Assembly (NCBI GenBank): GCA_023382265.1
Contig: JAMCPX010000073.1
Location: forward strand, 1-63,935
Length of the DNA stretch: 63,935 nt
DNA from: Deltaproteobacteria bacterium
Lineage (GTDB): Bacteria; JAMCPX01
Direction of reading: 5' to 3'
Shown here one piece after another: positions 30,518-58,733 of the stretch (within the stretch, counting starts at the first letter, position 1; each line of letters starts with the position of its first letter). The notes under the pieces are model-generated. The model saw only the letters and a program-made list of their open reading frames with translations. It had not been told where the DNA came from and did no database searches. Position numbers and translations under genes: made by a program.

Positions 30518-32338
30518 ATGAAAGTAACCATTAAAACATTTCCTGTTTTTACATTTCTGTTGCTTATGTTTTTAGCAGGGTGCAGCGGAACAAATGGAAA
30601 ACAAGGTCCTGCCGGACCTACCATGCCGGTAATACAGAGTCTATCTATTGTAGGATTACCTGTAATACCGGGTAACAATGTTACAACAACTGTCATTGCC
30701 CAGAGCGCACAGGAGCTTGCATTGACCTACACGTGGACAGTATCTCCATCAAGTGAATGGAAAATAATAAATGGTGGGAATAGTCAAACAGCAACAATAC
30801 AAGCACTAGGTGGATATGATGTTACAGGAACCGCTATCATAGAGGTGTCAGACAGTAACGGTATGTATGCAATGGGGGTAATTGCTTTAAGCACTCAGGG
30901 GGATACTGCACCGGTGATAAATAGTATAACAGCGTCACCAAATCCCGTATTACCGAACGGCGTTATAACAGCAGTCGTCAACACCTATGATGCAGAAGGG
31001 AATAGTTTGAAATATACATGGGGGGCTTCTTCAGGATGGGCAATAACCGGTTATGGAACAACTGCTACTGTAGCAGCACCGTCAACATACAACACCGGTG
31101 GATATGTAACCGTAACCGTAAGTGATAATTATGGATACGCAGTAACCGGTACAATAGGTGTAAGCACCTCAGACATAATACCTTCAACACCTACAAATCT
31201 CACAGCATTGTCAAGGACATCAAGCATTCTGCTTACATGGAATGCTTCAACAGGGGCTGCAAGTTATAATATTTATGAATCAGCGGTTTCCGGCGGACCA
31301 TATACAGCGGTAGGAACAACCACAACAACAGCCTATACGGTAACCGGTATAACAATCAGCACACCTTACTACTTTGTTGTTACCGCACTGAACAATGCCG
31401 CAGAAAGTGGATATTCAAACCAAGTAAAGGGGAGTAAGCTTATCTCAGCAACGTATGCTTTAGGCACCAGTCCCTATGGTATATCGATAGACGCTTCCGG
31501 CAATATATGGGTTGCGAATTCTGGCAGTAGTACTGTAACCAAATTAAGCCCTACAGGCGCTACAATCACCACGGTTACCGTAGGCTCCTATCCCTATGAT
31601 ATGGCGATAGACGCATCCGGCAATGTCTGGGTTACGAATTATGGCAGTAATAATGTAACCGAATTAAGCCCTGCCGGCGCTACAATCACCACGTATGCTG
31701 TAGGCACCGCTCCAATTGGTATAGCAATAGACGCATCAGGCAATGTCTGGGTTGCGAATTATGGCAGTAATAATGTAACCGAATTAAGCCCTGCCGGCGC
31801 TACAATCACCACGGTTACCGTAGGCTCCTATCCCCGTGGTATAGCGATAGACGCATCAGGCAATGTCTGGGTTGTGAACTCTGGTAGTAGTACTGTAACC
31901 GCATTAAGCCCTACTGGCGCTACAATCACCACGGTTACCGTAGGCTCCTATCCCCGTGGTATAGCGATAGACGCATCAGGCAATGTCTGGGTTGCGAATT
32001 ATGGCAGTAGTACTTTAACCGCATTAAGCCCTACTGGCGATACCATAGGCACGTATGCTGTAGGCACCGTTCCCATTGGTATAGCAATAGACGCATCAGG
32101 CAATGTCTGGGTTGCGAATTATGGCAGTAATAATGTAACCGAATTAAGCCCTGCCGGTGCTACCATAGGCACCTATGCTGTAGGCACCTTTCCCATTGGT
32201 ATAGCGATAGACGCATCAGGCAATGTCTGGGTTACGAATTCTGTTAGTGATAGTGTAACCGAATCAATGGGTATTACAAAAGGGCCTCAATACTTCCCAT
32301 ACACAGGTCCTCAATTCCCGGGCGGAGGAAACTTTTAG
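30518..32338 (+). CDS. Surface lipoprotein: PKD-like domains, FN3 and a seven-blade NHL/Vgb-type propeller
   Basis: 606 residues. Signal peptide with lipobox LAGC (lipidated Cys near 22), then a short collagen-like GKQGPAGP. Two PKD/Ig-like domains (about 40-125 and 130-222) with LTYTWTVS and the ITASPNPV opening are followed by an FN3 domain (about 225-305). Residues 308-590 hold seven 40-residue units of the form GIAIDASGNVWVANYGSNNVTELSP, i.e. a beta-propeller of the NHL/virginiamycin-lyase kind. No catalytic role is evident; a binding or adhesive surface role is inferred. It shares its front half with the broken gene at 61366. AGGAGG site and a strong terminator bracket it. Confidence 0.88.
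   Translation: MKVTIKTFPVFTFLLLMFLAGCSGTNGKQGPAGPTMPVIQSLSIVGLPVIPGNNVTTTVIAQSAQELALTYTWTVSPSSEWKIINGGNSQTATIQALGGYDVTGTAIIEVSDSNGMYAMGVIALSTQGDTAPVINSITASPNPVLPNGVITAVVNTYDAEGNSLKYTWGASSGWAITGYGTTATVAAPSTYNTGGYVTVTVSDNYGYAVTGTIGVSTSDIIPSTPTNLTALSRTSSILLTWNASTGAASYNIYESAVSGGPYTAVGTTTTTAYTVTGITISTPYYFVVTALNNAAESGYSNQVKGSKLISATYALGTSPYGISIDASGNIWVANSGSSTVTKLSPTGATITTVTVGSYPYDMAIDASGNVWVTNYGSNNVTELSPAGATITTYAVGTAPIGIAIDASGNVWVANYGSNNVTELSPAGATITTVTVGSYPRGIAIDASGNVWVVNSGSSTVTALSPTGATITTVTVGSYPRGIAIDASGNVWVANYGSSTLTALSPTGDTIGTYAVGTVPIGIAIDASGNVWVANYGSNNVTELSPAGATIGTYAVGTFPIGIAIDASGNVWVTNSVSDSVTESMGITKGPQYFPYTGPQFPGGGNF
31450..32270 (+). repeat. Seven near-identical 120-bp tandem repeats in the propeller gene
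   Basis: Units are 120 bases long, each one 40-residue propeller blade. The central units differ by only a few bases (GACGCATCAGGCAATGTCTGG recurs in phase). Blade ends alternate between two forms: GTxYAVGTxPIGIAI and TTVTVGSYPRGIAI. The high DNA identity suggests recent duplication or gene conversion, and copy number may vary between strains. Confidence 0.9.
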
Positions 32339-51923: not shown

Positions 51924-51984
51924 ACCACATCGGAACTTTTTTTAAGACAGCCTGTTTATCAAGTAAAAAGGGAGGTAAGGTAAA

Positions 51985-52863
51985 ATGGTTAAAAAGACTT
52001 TAGTGGTTTTAGGTATAATGGTGTTGGTTGGATTTCAATTAACAGGGTGCGGCAAACAAACGGTTGGCGAATCATCAGCTCAAATAGCTCAAACGACAGA
52101 GGAATCCATCAGCGGGGCTTCAAATGATTCAATTGCATTATCCAATGTAAGTAATTCCCAGCTTGGTATAGCCGATTACGGCTTAAGTGTTGTGGCATCT
52201 GCTTGTCCAAATGTAACAAAACCGGTAGTTACCAATACAATGAATTCAACAACATGGACTTTAGACATCAACTTTGGCAATGGCTGTATACCAAATTATT
52301 TCACCAACATTATGACAAGCGGCAACATAACAATGACTGTTACAAGATTTACGGATGGAACTAATGTAACAGCTACAACAATCGATACGAATGGCGACAT
52401 TGAAAGAACAAGATGGGACGGCGCATCTCTCTATATAAGCGGTACCACAGATATTGTAAGAACTGGTACTGTATCTCAGACAAGCACCACAAGAACAAGG
52501 GCAATAACGGTTAACGAGACGCGGGTTGCAATAAGTCCAAGAGGCAAGGTTGTGATGAATCACAACCTTAGCTTAAACTTTAATGCAGCCGATACACTTT
52601 CTTCTTCAACTCCATCAACTATTATCCAGAGGGTATTGAACGGAACAGGCAGCGTTGATCATTTACTCGCAAAGGTGCTTGCCGGTATAACGGTCACGAA
52701 CCTCACCTATGAACAAGGCTATTGTCATCCTGTAGACGGCACGGTGATACTCGTCCTGACAAAAGATACGGATGGAAGCCCGATCGGAACATACACTCTC
52801 GTATTCTCACATAGTTCAGCAACGCTTAATGGCAATCCAATTACATTAAACCCTTGTGATTGA
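51985..52863 (+). CDS. Lipoprotein of unknown function
   Basis: 292 residues. Signal peptide with LTGC lipobox (Cys 22), then a Ser/Gln-rich linker (30-55), then a mature domain with much beta structure and many Thr. It has two to three Cys pairs (ACPN, NGCIP, GYCHP, NPCD) that may form disulphides. No family recognised. GGGAGG site precedes the ATG. Controlled by the CRP-type site upstream, closed by a terminator. Confidence 0.82.
   Translation: MVKKTLVVLGIMVLVGFQLTGCGKQTVGESSAQIAQTTEESISGASNDSIALSNVSNSQLGIADYGLSVVASACPNVTKPVVTNTMNSTTWTLDINFGNGCIPNYFTNIMTSGNITMTVTRFTDGTNVTATTIDTNGDIERTRWDGASLYISGTTDIVRTGTVSQTSTTRTRAITVNETRVAISPRGKVVMNHNLSLNFNAADTLSSSTPSTIIQRVLNGTGSVDHLLAKVLAGITVTNLTYEQGYCHPVDGTVILVLTKDTDGSPIGTYTLVFSHSSATLNGNPITLNPCD
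52545..52570. repeat. Perfect 24-base palindrome inside the lipoprotein gene
   Basis: AAGGTTGTGAT (52546-52556) and ATCACAACCTT (52559-52569) are exact inverted repeats around GA. This contains a TGTGA-N4-TCACA variant of the CRP consensus. In mRNA it would make a strong hairpin. It encodes KVVMNHNL. Confidence 0.6.
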
Positions 52864-52892
52864 AAAATTGTAAGAAACCGGGTTTGTGTTCT

Positions 52893-52925
52893 ACAGGGGT
52901 GTGTGGCAATACGCCCCTGTTTTTT
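52893..52925 (+). terminator. Rho-independent terminator after the lipoprotein gene
   Basis: ACAGGGGTGT (52893-52902) pairs with ACGCCCCTGT (52911-52920), one G.T, followed by a T-run at 52920-52925. It lies 30 bases beyond the stop codon and before the outer-membrane gene at 52982. Confidence 0.88.
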
Positions 52926-52981
52926 GTGATGTTTGTCATAGACATAAATCCGTTCTTTGTTACCGTATAACGGATTATTAT

Positions 52982-54427
52982 ATGCGATATAAATTTCTTT
53001 TTCTATGCATTAGTATTAACATCATGTCCGTAAAAGCGTACGCCTGGTCTGTTTCTACAACAGGGAGCATAAGTTTGAGGTATCAGAAGGGTAAAAACCT
53101 TGGCTTGCTTAATCCCGGCGTTCAATACTCTGATGAAGCTTTTTCATCAGCATATCTTATGCCAGAGGTTGATTTGAGTCAGGGCGGCTGGTTTGATGGT
53201 GCTTTAGAACTCTACACAAGTGAGCTTTCGAGGAGGACATTTTCTTATAACAGCCTGAACCTTTACGGTGTAGAGAATGTAAACGATTATTTTAATGATA
53301 CACACTTTATCAGAAAGGCTTATGTATCTTTTAACCCGTCGGATAGTATAACGTTGTCCGCAGGTGAAATGCATATCATTGGCGGTTCAAGCCTGATCTT
53401 TGATAATTATCAGCCTTCCATTACATTTGATTATGATATGACGGATACACTCAATATTCCTCTTTCTTATGAATTAAACATAGTAAAGGTTGAGCCTTAC
53501 ATGCTTTATGACCCATCAAGAACCAGCATGTTTTACGATAATGAATTAACGTATAGTTTTTCCTTGTTCGAGTATATTACGTTGTTTTATGCTAATTTTG
53601 ACGACACCGATAATACACTCGCACCTTTACTTAACGGCATGATATACTCGGCCGATTTTAATAGAGAAACCTTGGATCGCCTGTCTGCCGTCTACGGAAA
53701 GGTAAAAGCAGCAGAGATAGAAACCTGCATTCAGGAAGAGTATTCAAATGGAGGTCCGGTAACCTCATCACGTACAAACATAAACTGGGCAGGGTTAACA
53801 GGTGACAAGTATTTTGGCGAATTAGAATTTAATGTTACAGGTGTGCTTGATTTTGGTAACGGAAGTATTTCAGGCGTTAATTGTTTCAGTCCTAACGTAA
53901 AGCCGGTCTTTAACCGTGATTTTCTGACTTACGGTTATCTTGGTGATGCTAAGATAAAATATCATATAGACGATATTGGTAAAATCGGTTTATTCTTTAA
54001 TATCTCCTCTGGCGATAAAACACCCATGCAGGCTATTATATCACAGGGTACTTTAAACAGCTTTATGTCCGTGTTTCCTTACAATACAGAAACAGATCTG
54101 TTTTTTAACGGCGGCATAAACCAGAATCTTAATTCAGGAACAATAGCGATTGCAGGCAGGAATGGACTTGGAATTGTTGCCTATGGAGGTATCATGGATT
54201 TCTATCCTGTAAAATCGATTGAATTTACAATCACGCCTGCATTGTTATATCCCGAGATGACAGCGGACTTCTATGGATTTGAAACCGATTTTACATTCAC
54301 ATATACGATTAATAAACATGTTTCATTTCCTTTTGAATTCGATTATTTCAAAGCTGGCGATTATTTTAAATACTATTCATCAGTGTCCCTTGCCCAGGTA
54401 CTGTTCGGCGCTGATATTACATGGTAA
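52982..54427 (+). CDS. Outer-membrane beta-barrel protein of unknown family
   Basis: 481 residues from the ATG at 52982. This start begins a clean signal peptide (MRYKFLFLCISIN..., cut after AYA); an upstream start at 52886 runs through the terminator. The mature protein is rich in alternating beta-strands with Tyr/Phe girdles (STTGSISLRYQKGKN, FYANFDDTD, GEMHIIGGSS) and ends in an aromatic residue (GADITW), typical of barrels inserted by BamA. It resembles alginate-export or porin-type proteins in layout only. No neighbour gives a substrate. Confidence 0.75.
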   Translation: MRYKFLFLCISINIMSVKAYAWSVSTTGSISLRYQKGKNLGLLNPGVQYSDEAFSSAYLMPEVDLSQGGWFDGALELYTSELSRRTFSYNSLNLYGVENVNDYFNDTHFIRKAYVSFNPSDSITLSAGEMHIIGGSSLIFDNYQPSITFDYDMTDTLNIPLSYELNIVKVEPYMLYDPSRTSMFYDNELTYSFSLFEYITLFYANFDDTDNTLAPLLNGMIYSADFNRETLDRLSAVYGKVKAAEIETCIQEEYSNGGPVTSSRTNINWAGLTGDKYFGELEFNVTGVLDFGNGSISGVNCFSPNVKPVFNRDFLTYGYLGDAKIKYHIDDIGKIGLFFNISSGDKTPMQAIISQGTLNSFMSVFPYNTETDLFFNGGINQNLNSGTIAIAGRNGLGIVAYGGIMDFYPVKSIEFTITPALLYPEMTADFYGFETDFTFTYTINKHVSFPFEFDYFKAGDYFKYYSSVSLAQVLFGADITW

Positions 54428-54465: not shown

Positions 54466-54477
54466 AGTTCCGGAACT
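54466..54477. promoter_or_regulatory. 12-base perfect palindrome before the ECF sigma gene
   Basis: AGTTCCGGAACT is self-complementary. It includes GGAAC, the usual -35 core of ECF promoters, 15 bases before the ATG at 54492. It may be an operator or part of a self-regulated promoter. Confidence 0.4.
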
Positions 54478-54491
54478 TTATTTATTATGAC

Positions 54492-55049
54492 ATGTTTAAC
54501 AATATGAATGATGAGATGGATAAAAATACAGTACTTATGCTCAAGCTCAAAAATGGCGATCGGGTGGCATTTGATGAACTGTATAGAAGATTTAACAAAA
54601 AGATATATAATTATGTATTTAGAATGGCTGGGAATAAAGAAACAGCAGAAGATATAACACAGGAGGTATTCGTAAAGATGTATGTATCCGCAAAGTATTA
54701 TGAACCAACGGGAAAATTTACAACATGGCTTTTCACAATTGCCACAAATACAATCATAAACGAACATCGTAAAGATAAACGGACCACATCTCTCGAAGCA
54801 GAGCCTTCCGTGGATGCAGAGCAATTCACTGAGAACAGGATCATAATTAATGAGATGGAGCAGGATTTACTAAACAGTATAAACAATCTGCCCGAGAATC
54901 AAAAAACCGTAATCGTTCTCAGGAGCTATGAAGGCATGGATTATGAAGAAATAGCAAAGGTGATCAATAATACGACAAAAGCCGTAAAATCCCTTTTAAA
55001 CAGGGCGAGAAAGAGGTTAAGCAATGAGTATAAAAAATCTGATATGTAA
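54492..55049 (+). CDS. ECF-type RNA polymerase sigma factor
   Basis: 185 residues. Region 2 (25-95): ELYRRFNKKIYNYVFRMAGNKETAEDITQEVFVKMY, FTTWLFTIATNTIINEHRK. Region 4 (125-180): LPENQKTVIVLRSYEGMDYEEIAKVINNTTKAVKSLLNRARKRL. No extra domains. The last 26 bases overlap the gene of the anti-sigma factor, so they are coupled. The factor should direct RNA polymerase to an envelope-stress or metal regulon. Confidence 0.94.
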   Translation: MFNNMNDEMDKNTVLMLKLKNGDRVAFDELYRRFNKKIYNYVFRMAGNKETAEDITQEVFVKMYVSAKYYEPTGKFTTWLFTIATNTIINEHRKDKRTTSLEAEPSVDAEQFTENRIIINEMEQDLLNSINNLPENQKTVIVLRSYEGMDYEEIAKVINNTTKAVKSLLNRARKRLSNEYKKSDM

Positions 55050-55515
55050 AATCAGGCTAAAATTTTCAAGGTCCCGTATCTCCGAATATGTCGATAACGA
55101 GCTTGATGATAGAGGCATTGACAGGGTAAAAGCCCTGATCGGCAATTGTCCTGCAGCAAACGCATACTACAATAAATTGAAGCACATAGACAATGCAATA
55201 AAAGCCATCCCCGAATATGAACCTTCCGATTCACTTAAAAACAGGATCGATCGGGCTATAATAAACCGGGATGCGGGATATGACAGTAGAAAGAAGGGTC
55301 TTAAATGGGTGTATGCCCTCTCATCGGTTATGGCTATTTTGCTTGTGGTAATGACCTTAACACATATTCATAATTACCGGGCAAGAATACACGGAACCGG
55401 CATGTTTGCAAATATGAATATGTATAAAAACATGGACATGTATGAACACATGGACATGTATGAACACATGGATGAAATAAGAGCTATAAGTAAAACAAAT
55501 CAATCTGGGGGTTGA
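55024..55515 (+). CDS. Putative membrane anti-sigma factor with Met/His-rich tail
   Basis: 163 residues. N-terminal segment ISEYVDNELDDRGIDRVKALIGNC resembles the anti-sigma domain (S-x-Y-x-D-x-E-L), but the usual zinc ligands H-x3-C-x2-C are missing (GNCPAANA). One membrane helix (about 94-113). The periplasmic tail (120-150) is made of Met-rich repeats GMFANMNMYKNMDMYEHM (18-base DNA repeat unit). Such Met/His clusters can bind copper or silver, but the 4-residue periodicity also fits an amphipathic helix. Overlaps sigma by 26 bases; next gene is 1 base away. Confidence 0.75.
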   Translation: MSIKNLICKIRLKFSRSRISEYVDNELDDRGIDRVKALIGNCPAANAYYNKLKHIDNAIKAIPEYEPSDSLKNRIDRAIINRDAGYDSRKKGLKWVYALSSVMAILLVVMTLTHIHNYRARIHGTGMFANMNMYKNMDMYEHMDMYEHMDEIRAISKTNQSGG

Positions 55516-55516
55516 G

Positions 55517-55777
55517 ATGACAGGTATTATTATTGCGATATTTTTATCAGGTATTGGTGCAGGGCCAAATAGCAGCTCACATCCGCGTATGCCGTATACA
55601 TCAACTTTTACAGGAACGGCATCCCATTACATTACCCAAACAGCAAAGCAAAATAAAAGCATCAAAAAAGAAGATAAAGACATCATTAAACACTTGGAGA
55701 TCTTAAAAGATATGGCTATGTATGAGGACCTTGCTCTTTACAGGTATATGAAGGTCTTTGAGCAGGAGGAAAAATAA
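55517..55777 (+). CDS. Small exported protein in the sigma operon, unknown
   Basis: 86 residues. A short hydrophobic N-terminus (TGIIIAIFLSGIGAG) acts as a signal or anchor. The remainder is polar; the C-terminal helix KDMAMYEDLALYRYMKVFEQ resembles the Met-rich repeats of the anti-sigma factor encoded just before. It starts one base after the anti-sigma stop and ends overlapping (TAATG) the DUF3106 gene. Function unknown, but the context suggests a role in the same signal. Confidence 0.75.
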   Translation: MTGIIIAIFLSGIGAGPNSSSHPRMPYTSTFTGTASHYITQTAKQNKSIKKEDKDIIKHLEILKDMAMYEDLALYRYMKVFEQEEK

Positions 55778-56277
55778 TGAAATATTTTAAATTAGTTGTG
55801 TTTTTTTTATGGCTTATGTTTATGTCAGCCATTGTGTACGCACAAACAGCCGTGAATGTATCCAATGGCCAAAAACAATGGGAATCAATGTCTAAAGCAC
55901 AAAAACAGGAACTGAGTAAGGCATTTAAAAAATGGCAGTCCCTGCCCGAGGATAGACGCGGGAAGATCATCCAAAATTATATGTTGTTCAAGTCCTTATC
56001 AAAGGATGAGCAAAAAAGGATCATAAAGGAATACAAACATTTTCAAAACCTCCCGGAGGATAAGAAAAGACTCGTAATGGATAATTATCAAAGGTGGAAA
56101 TCCATGCCATCCGCAAAAAGACAGATCATTTTAAGAAATTATAAAATCTACCAATCCTTATCACCGAGAGAAAAAGAAGCTCTTAGGAGGCAATATTTAA
56201 AGTGGAAAGGCATTACACCGGCACAAAGGGAAAGAATAAAAGAACTGATCAGAAACCGCAAACTCAAAAAAGAGTAA
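55777..56277 (+). CDS. Periplasmic DUF3106-family protein
   Basis: 166 residues with a signal peptide (hydrophobic 6-20, cut after YAQ). The mature part is about five helical repeats of the form W-x-x-L/M-x-x-x-x-R/K-x-x-I/L-x-x-N/x-Y-x-x-(W/F) (for example FKKWQSLPEDRRGKIIQNYMLF). This is DUF3106, often in ECF operons and similar in layout to periplasmic stress sensors such as CpxP/Spy or zinc-resistance proteins. It is the last gene of the operon. Binding partner unknown. Confidence 0.88.
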   Translation: MKYFKLVVFFLWLMFMSAIVYAQTAVNVSNGQKQWESMSKAQKQELSKAFKKWQSLPEDRRGKIIQNYMLFKSLSKDEQKRIIKEYKHFQNLPEDKKRLVMDNYQRWKSMPSAKRQIILRNYKIYQSLSPREKEALRRQYLKWKGITPAQRERIKELIRNRKLKKE

Positions 56278-56368: not shown

Positions 56369-56387
56369 TAAATAAACGGAGGTGTAC

Positions 56388-58733
56388 ATGAAAAAGACTT
56401 TTTTCACAATAATGTTACTTTTTCTTATTTTTATACCGATCATTTCACACGCAGATGTTTATGGTCCGCCTCGATGGCATCCCGATGCTGTCAACCTCGT
56501 TATATATCAAAGGTTGTTTAATTACATTTCACAAAGTTTTACCGGACTGACAGCAAATATTCCCATCCCATGCAGTCATATCTGTTCGGGTGGAAGCTGT
56601 GGAGACTGTGGCCAATGTACAAGCTATATCGATCCCATGAATCTACATCTTACTATACCTGCCCAGTACAATGGCCAGCCAAACCTTAACTTCTCATGGC
56701 AGGGATCCACGCAGAGCTTATTGGTAACAGTAAATGAGATCCATGGATACATTCCACAGGGTACTGCTGACGCAGAGACAACTCTTAATTTATGTGTTTG
56801 GCCGCTTCCTTCATGTCCTCTCTGTGCGGGATTTTGCAGCACAACTTTAGATGATATAAATGTGGATGCAAATAACGTCGCACTAAACATCCAGCCCCAG
56901 ATTACGGGAGATTATCTTAAATTTAAGACGGTTGGAAACCCAAGTATTACTTTTAACAATGTTACGGTCGGGAATATAAGCAGTAACAGCGGCAGCATAC
57001 TGTGTCAGGCAGGAGGTGCGGTAGCCAATCTTTTCTATCAATTGCTTCAGCCTATTATACAAAGTCTGGTTGATACTGTCATTACACAGTTTGTAAACAC
57101 TCAGCTTTTACCAAGCATCTCCGGTATGATAAATAACGTAAACGTTAACCTTTATATGCACGGCAGTTTCACCCCGATCGCATATCAGGTAAGGCCTTCT
57201 TTTTTCTATCAGGCACTAAATATCACGGCTAATGCCGCACAAATAAATCTTGATGCAGGCATTGGGTCTGCTATTGGTTCAGTCGATTGTCCTCCAACCC
57301 CCCTTGCACAAAAGCCGCCGGACAATGTAATACCTCCGACAATAGATACGGGAAGAACGGATTCTATGCTGGCATTTGGTGTTTCACAGGATGTTATAAA
57401 TGATGCACTTTATGCTGTTTATCAAAGCGGCATGATATGCATAACCGCGCCGCCATTGCCTGTTGGTTTGCTCAAAACTATTATACCTCAACTACCGAGC
57501 AGCGGTTCCCTTATTCTCAAGATCATACCTACACAGGCTCCCACCATTACACTCGGGAGCCCCCAGAATCTATGGGATACGGTTAACCTGAACGGGCTTA
57601 TTATTGAAGGTCTGCTAGGAGTTGATGAGGCTCAGACGTATCCGGGCGCAAACGAGCCCTACAATACTCAGTATACCGATGCATTCATCATGAGCACAGA
57701 TCTATCCATAAGAGCAGAGGTTTATATTGACCATAATAAATTAGATCAAAACGGAAATCCAATGCTCGTGGTTGCAATAGATAGCAGCCCGCAGGGCATG
57801 AAGATCAATAATACCGTGCTCTCTTCCGAGCTTACAAACCCTTCAAACATCAATAATGTGATAAAGCTCGCCATGAGCCTCGCGTCCGGTTTTATTGGAA
57901 CAGCATTACCTGCAATGAGTTCTGCATTTACATTCAGCGGAGTTACAATACTGGTAAAGGACATCATTCCATCAGGAGGATATATAAACGTTTATATAGA
58001 TCTGTCGGGCTTTATGAATTTGCTTTCATCTACGTCACTTGCCCCGCCTCAAATGGCAACGCTTACTTATAATAATCCATCAACGACCAATCTCAAAACA
58101 CTCTCACTGGCGAATAATGCTCAGCCTTTGATAAACACAAACTCTGATATAGCTTTTAATCTTGCCGATACACTTCCACCGCATACACAGTTATCATGGA
58201 GGCTGTCCGATCAATCCATTTTTGGAGATGTGTGGCAGGGCTGGTCATTATGGACCACAGATACAACGATAACTCTTGATAATCTAATGGATGGAGAGCA
58301 TACACTTGAGGTAAGGCTGATGGATAGCCGGACAGGCATAACATCAACCAGTACTTATACATCATTTAAGGTAGATACGGTTAAACCCGAATTGAAGCTT
58401 ATCAGTGCTAATTATCCAACCTTTGTATTTAACATGAGCGATCCTGTTACAATGCCAAGACTTATGTATGCTGTAGACAACCCTGCTTCTTTTACCAAGC
58501 TTGGATATAATGAAAATACTGTTAACTTAACAAACAGTACCGCCGGAACACACACGCTTTATGTTAAGGCAATAGATGAGGCAGGTAATACATCAAGTAT
58601 GGAGTCCATACCTTATACAGTTACCGGCAAGACATCGGACGGGTGCGGTACAGTACCCTTTGATGATAACAACCCTTACACGCTTTTAGTGGTATTGATT
58701 CCATTGTTCTTAATATTTATAATAAGGCTCTGA
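56388..58733 (+). CDS. Large secreted Cys-rich protein with C-terminal membrane tail, lipid-binding-like
   Basis: 781 residues from ATG 56388 (GGAGGT before it). Signal peptide (hydrophobic 5-20, cut after SHA). Two Cys clusters: CSHICSGGSCGDCGQC (near 60-75) and CVWPLPSCPLCAGFC (near 138-152). The following 300 residues, with LFYQLLQPIIQSLVDTVI and alternating strands, recall BPI/LBP-type lipid-binding folds in layout. A later Ig-like domain (560-660) precedes GCGTVPFDDNNPYTLLVVLI and a final hydrophobic helix ending IIRL. That C-terminal Cys plus helix is like a MYXO-CTERM-type sorting tail. Family unknown. Confidence 0.7.
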   Translation: MKKTFFTIMLLFLIFIPIISHADVYGPPRWHPDAVNLVIYQRLFNYISQSFTGLTANIPIPCSHICSGGSCGDCGQCTSYIDPMNLHLTIPAQYNGQPNLNFSWQGSTQSLLVTVNEIHGYIPQGTADAETTLNLCVWPLPSCPLCAGFCSTTLDDINVDANNVALNIQPQITGDYLKFKTVGNPSITFNNVTVGNISSNSGSILCQAGGAVANLFYQLLQPIIQSLVDTVITQFVNTQLLPSISGMINNVNVNLYMHGSFTPIAYQVRPSFFYQALNITANAAQINLDAGIGSAIGSVDCPPTPLAQKPPDNVIPPTIDTGRTDSMLAFGVSQDVINDALYAVYQSGMICITAPPLPVGLLKTIIPQLPSSGSLILKIIPTQAPTITLGSPQNLWDTVNLNGLIIEGLLGVDEAQTYPGANEPYNTQYTDAFIMSTDLSIRAEVYIDHNKLDQNGNPMLVVAIDSSPQGMKINNTVLSSELTNPSNINNVIKLAMSLASGFIGTALPAMSSAFTFSGVTILVKDIIPSGGYINVYIDLSGFMNLLSSTSLAPPQMATLTYNNPSTTNLKTLSLANNAQPLINTNSDIAFNLADTLPPHTQLSWRLSDQSIFGDVWQGWSLWTTDTTITLDNLMDGEHTLEVRLMDSRTGITSTSTYTSFKVDTVKPELKLISANYPTFVFNMSDPVTMPRLMYAVDNPASFTKLGYNENTVNLTNSTAGTHTLYVKAIDEAGNTSSMESIPYTVTGKTSDGCGTVPFDDNNPYTLLVVLIPLFLIFIIRL

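Follow-up and report, generated by a model that had tools for sequence, protein, structure and literature searches.

A predicted autoregulated ECF sigma factor operon with a DUF3106 protein and a secreted copy of the anti-sigma tail motif

Gene content and conservation of the operon

The window analysed here, by which we mean the whole stretch of 63,935 nucleotides, is contig 73 of a deltaproteobacterial draft genome of 2.63 Mb (GCA_023382265.1; JAMCPX010000073.1). Its plus strand carries four tightly joined genes that form one operon and encode an ECF sigma factor (54504..55049), a membrane anti-sigma factor (55024..55515), a small exported protein (55517..55777) and a DUF3106 protein (55777..56277; PF11304). 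Every joint given in the original prediction could be reproduced from the coordinates: the sigma stop at 55049 and the anti-sigma start at 55024 produce a 26-base overlap, a 1-base gap separates the anti-sigma stop at 55515 from the small ORF at 55517, and in the TAATG at 55775-55779 one base is common to the stop of the small gene and the start of DUF3106. The operon is genuine, and it is conserved. Seven of the eight further genomes in the family have a DUF3106 homologue (45-51% identity). All six of these whose contigs span the region show the gene order outer-membrane protein, sigma, anti-sigma, small protein, DUF3106, which with the window included makes seven of seven covered genomes (the seven family operons referred to below). 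The contig of a seventh relative stops within the operon, yet the small protein and DUF3106 are present, and the small protein was found in all eight family loci. The isolate names of the family's public records may point to mine sites.

The gene for an outer-membrane beta-barrel-like protein (52886..54427, plus strand) is conserved immediately 5' of the sigma gene in the six relatives; its true start probably lies at about 52982 (MRYKFLF), and a more distant counterpart is present in locus L022 (profile E = 4e-15). Ahead of it is a gene for a lipoprotein of 292 amino acids (51985..52863, plus strand; function not assigned), which matched no Pfam family and which also remains close to the operon in relatives. 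Directly downstream, and outside the conserved operon, an exported protein of 783 amino acids is encoded (56382-58733); its N-terminal part is rich in Cys (CSHICSGGSCGDCGQC), and it contains a Big_13 domain.

Because the homologues start MRDEMD, the sigma factor probably begins at the ATG at 54504 rather than at 54492, the start first listed. It contains regions 2 and 4 only, as is the ECF pattern (Sigma70_r2, E = 4e-19; Sigma70_r4_2, E = 7e-15; TIGR02937 sigma70-ECF above its cut-off), and its best relative in the PDB is SigW (E = 7e-23). The anti-sigma factor combines, according to profile and model, a class I cytoplasmic domain, one transmembrane helix (a hydrophobic stretch at approximately residues 95-118, read from the sequence) and a short periplasmic tail. 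A profile of 17 homologues matches RsiW (4e-8), RslA, ChrR and RsrA, and these relatives, the adjacent ECF gene and the transmembrane helix place it among the class I membrane anti-sigma factors. In the AlphaFold model residues 1-60 are predicted with a pLDDT of about 95 and the tail with low confidence (about 51-60); the best matches of the fold search, all weak, were the MucA, RsiW, RseA and RslA domains. The zinc motif Hx3Cx2C is absent, as had been predicted, with Pfam zf-HC2 reaching only E = 0.041 (11 of the 17 homologues match it at E<=0.1). This absence is unremarkable, since zinc and non-zinc members are intermixed in class I and the motif is optional (PMC7406223).

The small protein matched no Pfam family. 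The DUF3106 protein consists of a signal peptide and seven 18-residue helical repeats, and its assignment to PF11304 is clear (E = 7e-21; 75 bits against a cut-off of 24.3). Past the signal peptide its net charge is +23, within a range of +7 to +34 across the set, and its AlphaFold model has eight helices (mean pLDDT 87) whose packing is uncertain (pTM 0.51). Neither a Metal_resist/LTXXQ domain of the CnrX or Spy/CpxP type nor an RseB domain was detected in it by Pfam, PDB sequence or PDB fold, so homology to CnrX, Spy/CpxP or RseB is unsupported by these searches; Foldseek against the PDB returned no match better than E = 1.8. Weak matches to amyloid precursor protein among the PDB sequences (E = 0.004) were judged to be a composition effect of a helical, charged sequence. 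No mention of DUF3106 or PF11304 was found in the literature searched, which took in a minority of the subscription-journal papers. Our analysis bears out the earlier proposal of an ECF sigma/anti-sigma operon with periplasmic partners.

Promoter and predicted regulon

A predicted autoregulatory promoter of the ECF type (54472..54499, plus strand) precedes the sigma gene in the form GGAACTTT-N14-GTTTAA, with 16 nt between GGAACT and GTTTAA, and is conserved in all seven family operons. The -35 element reads GGAACTTT except in two operons with GAAACTTT and one with AGAACTTT, while GTTTAA stands at a fixed spacing. Within the window the pattern GGAACTT-N14-18-GTTTAA has a single match, against 0.02 expected. 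The promoter ends 3-4 nt ahead of the sigma start codon in six of the seven family genomes, and the sigma mRNA would accordingly be nearly leaderless. The 12-base palindrome with a GGAAC core that the original prediction placed before the operon does exist (54466-54477), but it is not conserved: only its right half, which is the -35 element, is kept in relatives. A role of the palindrome as an operator was rejected, since conservation is confined to the GGAACTTT half.

A second predicted copy of the promoter, with one mismatch (GGAACTTTTTTTAAGACAGCCTGTTTAT; 51932..51959, plus strand), precedes the lipoprotein gene, whose start lies 25 nt past it with a ribosome-binding site, making the lipoprotein a predicted regulon member. 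In three other family genomes the orthologous lipoprotein gene is preceded by a site in the same position (four genomes in all), and the transcription unit probably extends upstream to about 51932, taking in this promoter copy, the lipoprotein gene and the outer-membrane-protein gene.

Searching nine family genomes with one mismatch allowed and the spacing fixed gave 26 sites, compared with 9 for the reversed pattern that served as a control. The operon or an exported-protein gene follows 23 of these sites, and the remaining three are within a coding sequence or antisense to one; among the nine control sites there is none ahead of a plausible gene of this kind. Target starts usually follow 22-36 nt after the -10 element, with a ribosome-binding site. 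The list of targets is partial because with two mismatches the signal merges with the background, and that search returned the background level only.

The sites recur before orthologous genes. All five full orthologues of a Met-rich, ZraP-like periplasmic protein have one (the spacer being 17 in one case), and a sixth orthologue, cut short, lies at a contig edge. "ZraP-like" describes general architecture only, since the protein falls below the cut-off of every known family and gives only weak matches (PRK11546, E = 0.006-0.25; PF13801, E = 0.03; PDB 3lay, E = 0.11). The copy in the window's own genome (contig 49; L115:1594-2022) is Met-rich with a C-terminal MMGKGMGPGM and stands behind the same promoter as the operon. 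Further sites precede the gene for a secreted protein of 85 amino acids (GPHPRIVKAIDMLRHTRSVLEQAP; loci L167, L175, L187 and L177) in three genomes, twice in G006, a protein without a Pfam family; the gene for an fn3 lipoprotein in two genera; and the gene for a FecR/DUF6600 exported protein in three genomes, with two more FecR-gene sites in a wider pattern whose spacer is one or two bases longer. Since these promoters match that of the operon, we infer that the operon's own sigma factor uses them; the promoter could also serve a further ECF factor. Every predicted target that could be recognised is an exported protein, which supports the envelope-stress role envisaged at the outset.

The hexad-repeat tail and its linkage to DUF3106

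The periplasmic tail of the anti-sigma factor (55402..55485, plus strand; tail profile E = 1.3e-11 as a training member) was first noticed for its repeated Met/His units, and the 18-base DNA repeat reported to underlie them is present (55420-55472; period 18, 2.9 copies, 94% match). A repeat expansion is ruled out as its explanation, relatives without the repeat having an equally long tail. The Met-rich tail is one form of a hexad repeat, h-x-h-h-x-x, whose intervening positions are acidic or Asn. The small protein, for which a matching Met-rich helix had been predicted, carries a second and separately secreted copy of this motif (55679-55768; E = 3.8e-11, also a training member). In other phyla the hexad tails are likewise borne by anti-sigma factors, mostly with Leu or Ile at the core, for example EIVKNIEMLENLEILENLDLLTDL (L068), ELELIENYELIQDLELLENL (L063) and RVELLENLELLENIELFEDF (L117); among 28 such distant tails, aligned by hand, the core is 99% hydrophobic (L 49%, I 15%, M 14%, V 6%, Y 6%, F 5%). 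Throughout the members checked the tails are acidic and DUF3106 is strongly basic. The 18-residue repeat of DUF3106 equals three hexads in length, which may be coincidence.

In line with the copper- or silver-sensing relay first suggested, one competing account has Cu(I) or Ag(I) bound by the Met/His units of the tail and of the small protein, and the signal passed on to the sigma factor. The window's tail does contain two MxxH units, like the SilE motifs MxxH/HxxM (PMC5008109), a feature shared with SilE/PcoE-type Met/His silver-binding proteins, Met makes up 47% of the core positions in the family's anti-sigma tails (30% in its small proteins), and one predicted target is the Met-rich ZraP-like protein. 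The observation named beforehand as speaking against metal binding, namely Leu or other residues in place of Met in homologues, was looked for and found: Met is exchanged for L, I, V or F even inside the family, and largely for Leu or Ile in other phyla, with the hexad register unchanged. The MxxH units are not conserved as ligands as they would be in a protein of the SilE type, the small protein of G001 (NINVYKDFNLYRYINVF) has no MxxH, no metal transporter adjoins the operon in the loci read, and the match to ZraP is weak. We consider copper or silver sensing through the tail very improbable; a metal input for the window's own lineage keeps a weak residue of plausibility, and metal is not the conserved function. 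The tolerated hydrophobic exchanges fit better with the other reading offered at the time, that of a plain interaction helix, and a tag for protein binding is a more likely role of the tail than the sensing of copper or silver. The Met-rich tail is the local form of a widespread Leu-rich motif that travels with DUF3106.

PF11304 was found in 36 of 290 sampled genomes (30 above the cut-off), and outside the family an ECF sigma gene precedes DUF3106 by 0.75-2.6 kb, in the same orientation, in 34 of the 38 loci read, indicating that this type of operon is widespread. Among 22 loci chosen by DUF3106 alone, without regard to the tail, an ECF sigma gene lies upstream in 18 and a tail is detectable in 14, with none detected in the other eight. 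In the first genome set nearly every strong tail match adjoins DUF3106, although this set is not independent, most of its genomes having supplied training tails. We also ran a profile built from 25 tails, together with PF11304, against 198 genomes of another phylum; G177 alone among them had contributed to the tail profile, and the rest were held out. A tail match at E<=0.01 was obtained in 19 held-out genomes. In all but one of these, 18 genomes belonging to about 10 families, DUF3106 follows the match on the same strand at a distance of roughly 0.2-1.6 kb, and a random position would fall in such a stretch about once in several thousand; the exception is a match in a 671-amino acid ORF of G389. 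Long DUF3106 ORFs (418-464 amino acids) with extra N-terminal sequence occur at L022:4469-5740, L023:24-1280 and L062:3490-4884; by eye the extension in L022 looks FecR-like, and the predicted targets, too, include a FecR/DUF6600 protein. G071, which has a sigma operon, encodes a second DUF3106 protein without an adjacent sigma gene (contig 2; L057:3578-4333).

Linkage and charge do not prove contact between the tail and DUF3106, and genomic linkage would be equally expected of co-regulated partners that never meet. The tail might then be a segment for protease recognition, membrane contact or self-association, and DUF3106 a co-regulated chaperone or envelope protein. A role in membrane contact or as a cleavage site would not predict that the motif is repeated on a separate secreted protein, and the tail and DUF3106 are oppositely charged throughout; we regard the absence of binding as unlikely, but as the most serious of the competing accounts. 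Another account accepts that the tail and DUF3106 bind and makes the small protein a bridge or co-sensor in a three-part complex instead of a competitor. The presence of the small gene in all family operons and the overlap of its stop with the DUF3106 start, which suggests fixed proportions, agree with such a complex. Outside the family, a second tail-bearing frame occurs in five loci (L060, L063, L069, L117 and L122), but most DUF3106 loci have the tail without a separate small protein, and the identical type of motif on both proteins points to one shared site, making a bridging role rather improbable.

Proposed control circuit and comparison with known systems

ECF sigma factors are a main bacterial route for sensing envelope trouble, and to our knowledge few of their systems have a known periplasmic partner. 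An ECF sigma factor with a membrane anti-sigma factor and a periplasmic partner is of a known kind, and what is new here is the DUF3106 partner, the hexad motif and the secreted copy of that motif. We lean, on balance, towards an autoregulated envelope-stress system in which the basic DUF3106 protein docks on the acidic anti-sigma tail, a secreted copy of the tail motif competes with it and the sigma factor acts through promoters of its own. In such a circuit the membrane anti-sigma factor would hold the sigma factor, its tail of hydrophobic and acidic hexads offering a putative docking site for DUF3106, and the small exported protein, with the same motif, would compete for DUF3106. Envelope trouble may draw DUF3106 off the tail, or onto it, as either direction of control would serve, with the anti-sigma factor then inactivated, probably by proteolysis. 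The freed sigma factor would transcribe its own operon and the genes for exported proteins from the GGAACTTT-N14-GTTTAA promoters.

The roles of docking partner and competitor are suggested by analogy with RseA/RseB (PMC8103513) and CnrYXH (PMC7689651). The RpoE/RseA/RseB system of Escherichia coli likewise has an ECF sigma factor, a membrane anti-sigma factor, autoregulation and envelope targets, and RseB, encoded in the same operon, is a periplasmic protein thought to act on the periplasmic part of the anti-sigma factor (PMC8103513). DUF3106, however, is not RseB by either Pfam or PDB fold, and the tail of the window's system is a short hexad repeat with a secreted copy. The cobalt/nickel system CnrYXH of Cupriavidus metallidurans also joins a membrane anti-sigma factor to a periplasmic sensor protein (PMC7689651), whereas in the DUF3106 system there is no CnrX/Metal_resist match, no metal ligands are conserved and no RND efflux genes adjoin the operon in the loci read. 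The window's system may work like RseAB or CnrYXH, but with no match of DUF3106 to RseB or CnrX it is a member of neither. SigW/RsiW and other class I pairs are the closest solved relatives of the sigma factor and the anti-sigma domain, but the anti-sigma factor of the window differs in having no zinc motif and in its DUF3106-linked tail.

By tying DUF3106 to an anti-sigma tail motif, to a secreted copy of this motif and to a predicted promoter with a list of targets, our analysis gives a previously uncharacterized domain, spread over many bacterial lineages, a signalling role that can be tested. That DUF3106 proteins form a widespread, hitherto undescribed class of periplasmic ECF co-regulators reading the hexad motif, with some lineages secreting a free competitor copy that sets the threshold, is a tentative generalization to which we give a little less than an even chance.

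Elsewhere in the window, we noted an exported protein of 606 amino acids with near-identical repeats around GNVWVANYGSNNVTELSPAGATI, probably a beta-propeller (30518-32338), and, near the contig start, a transposase-like ORF fragment on the minus strand (323-856), recognized by eye only.
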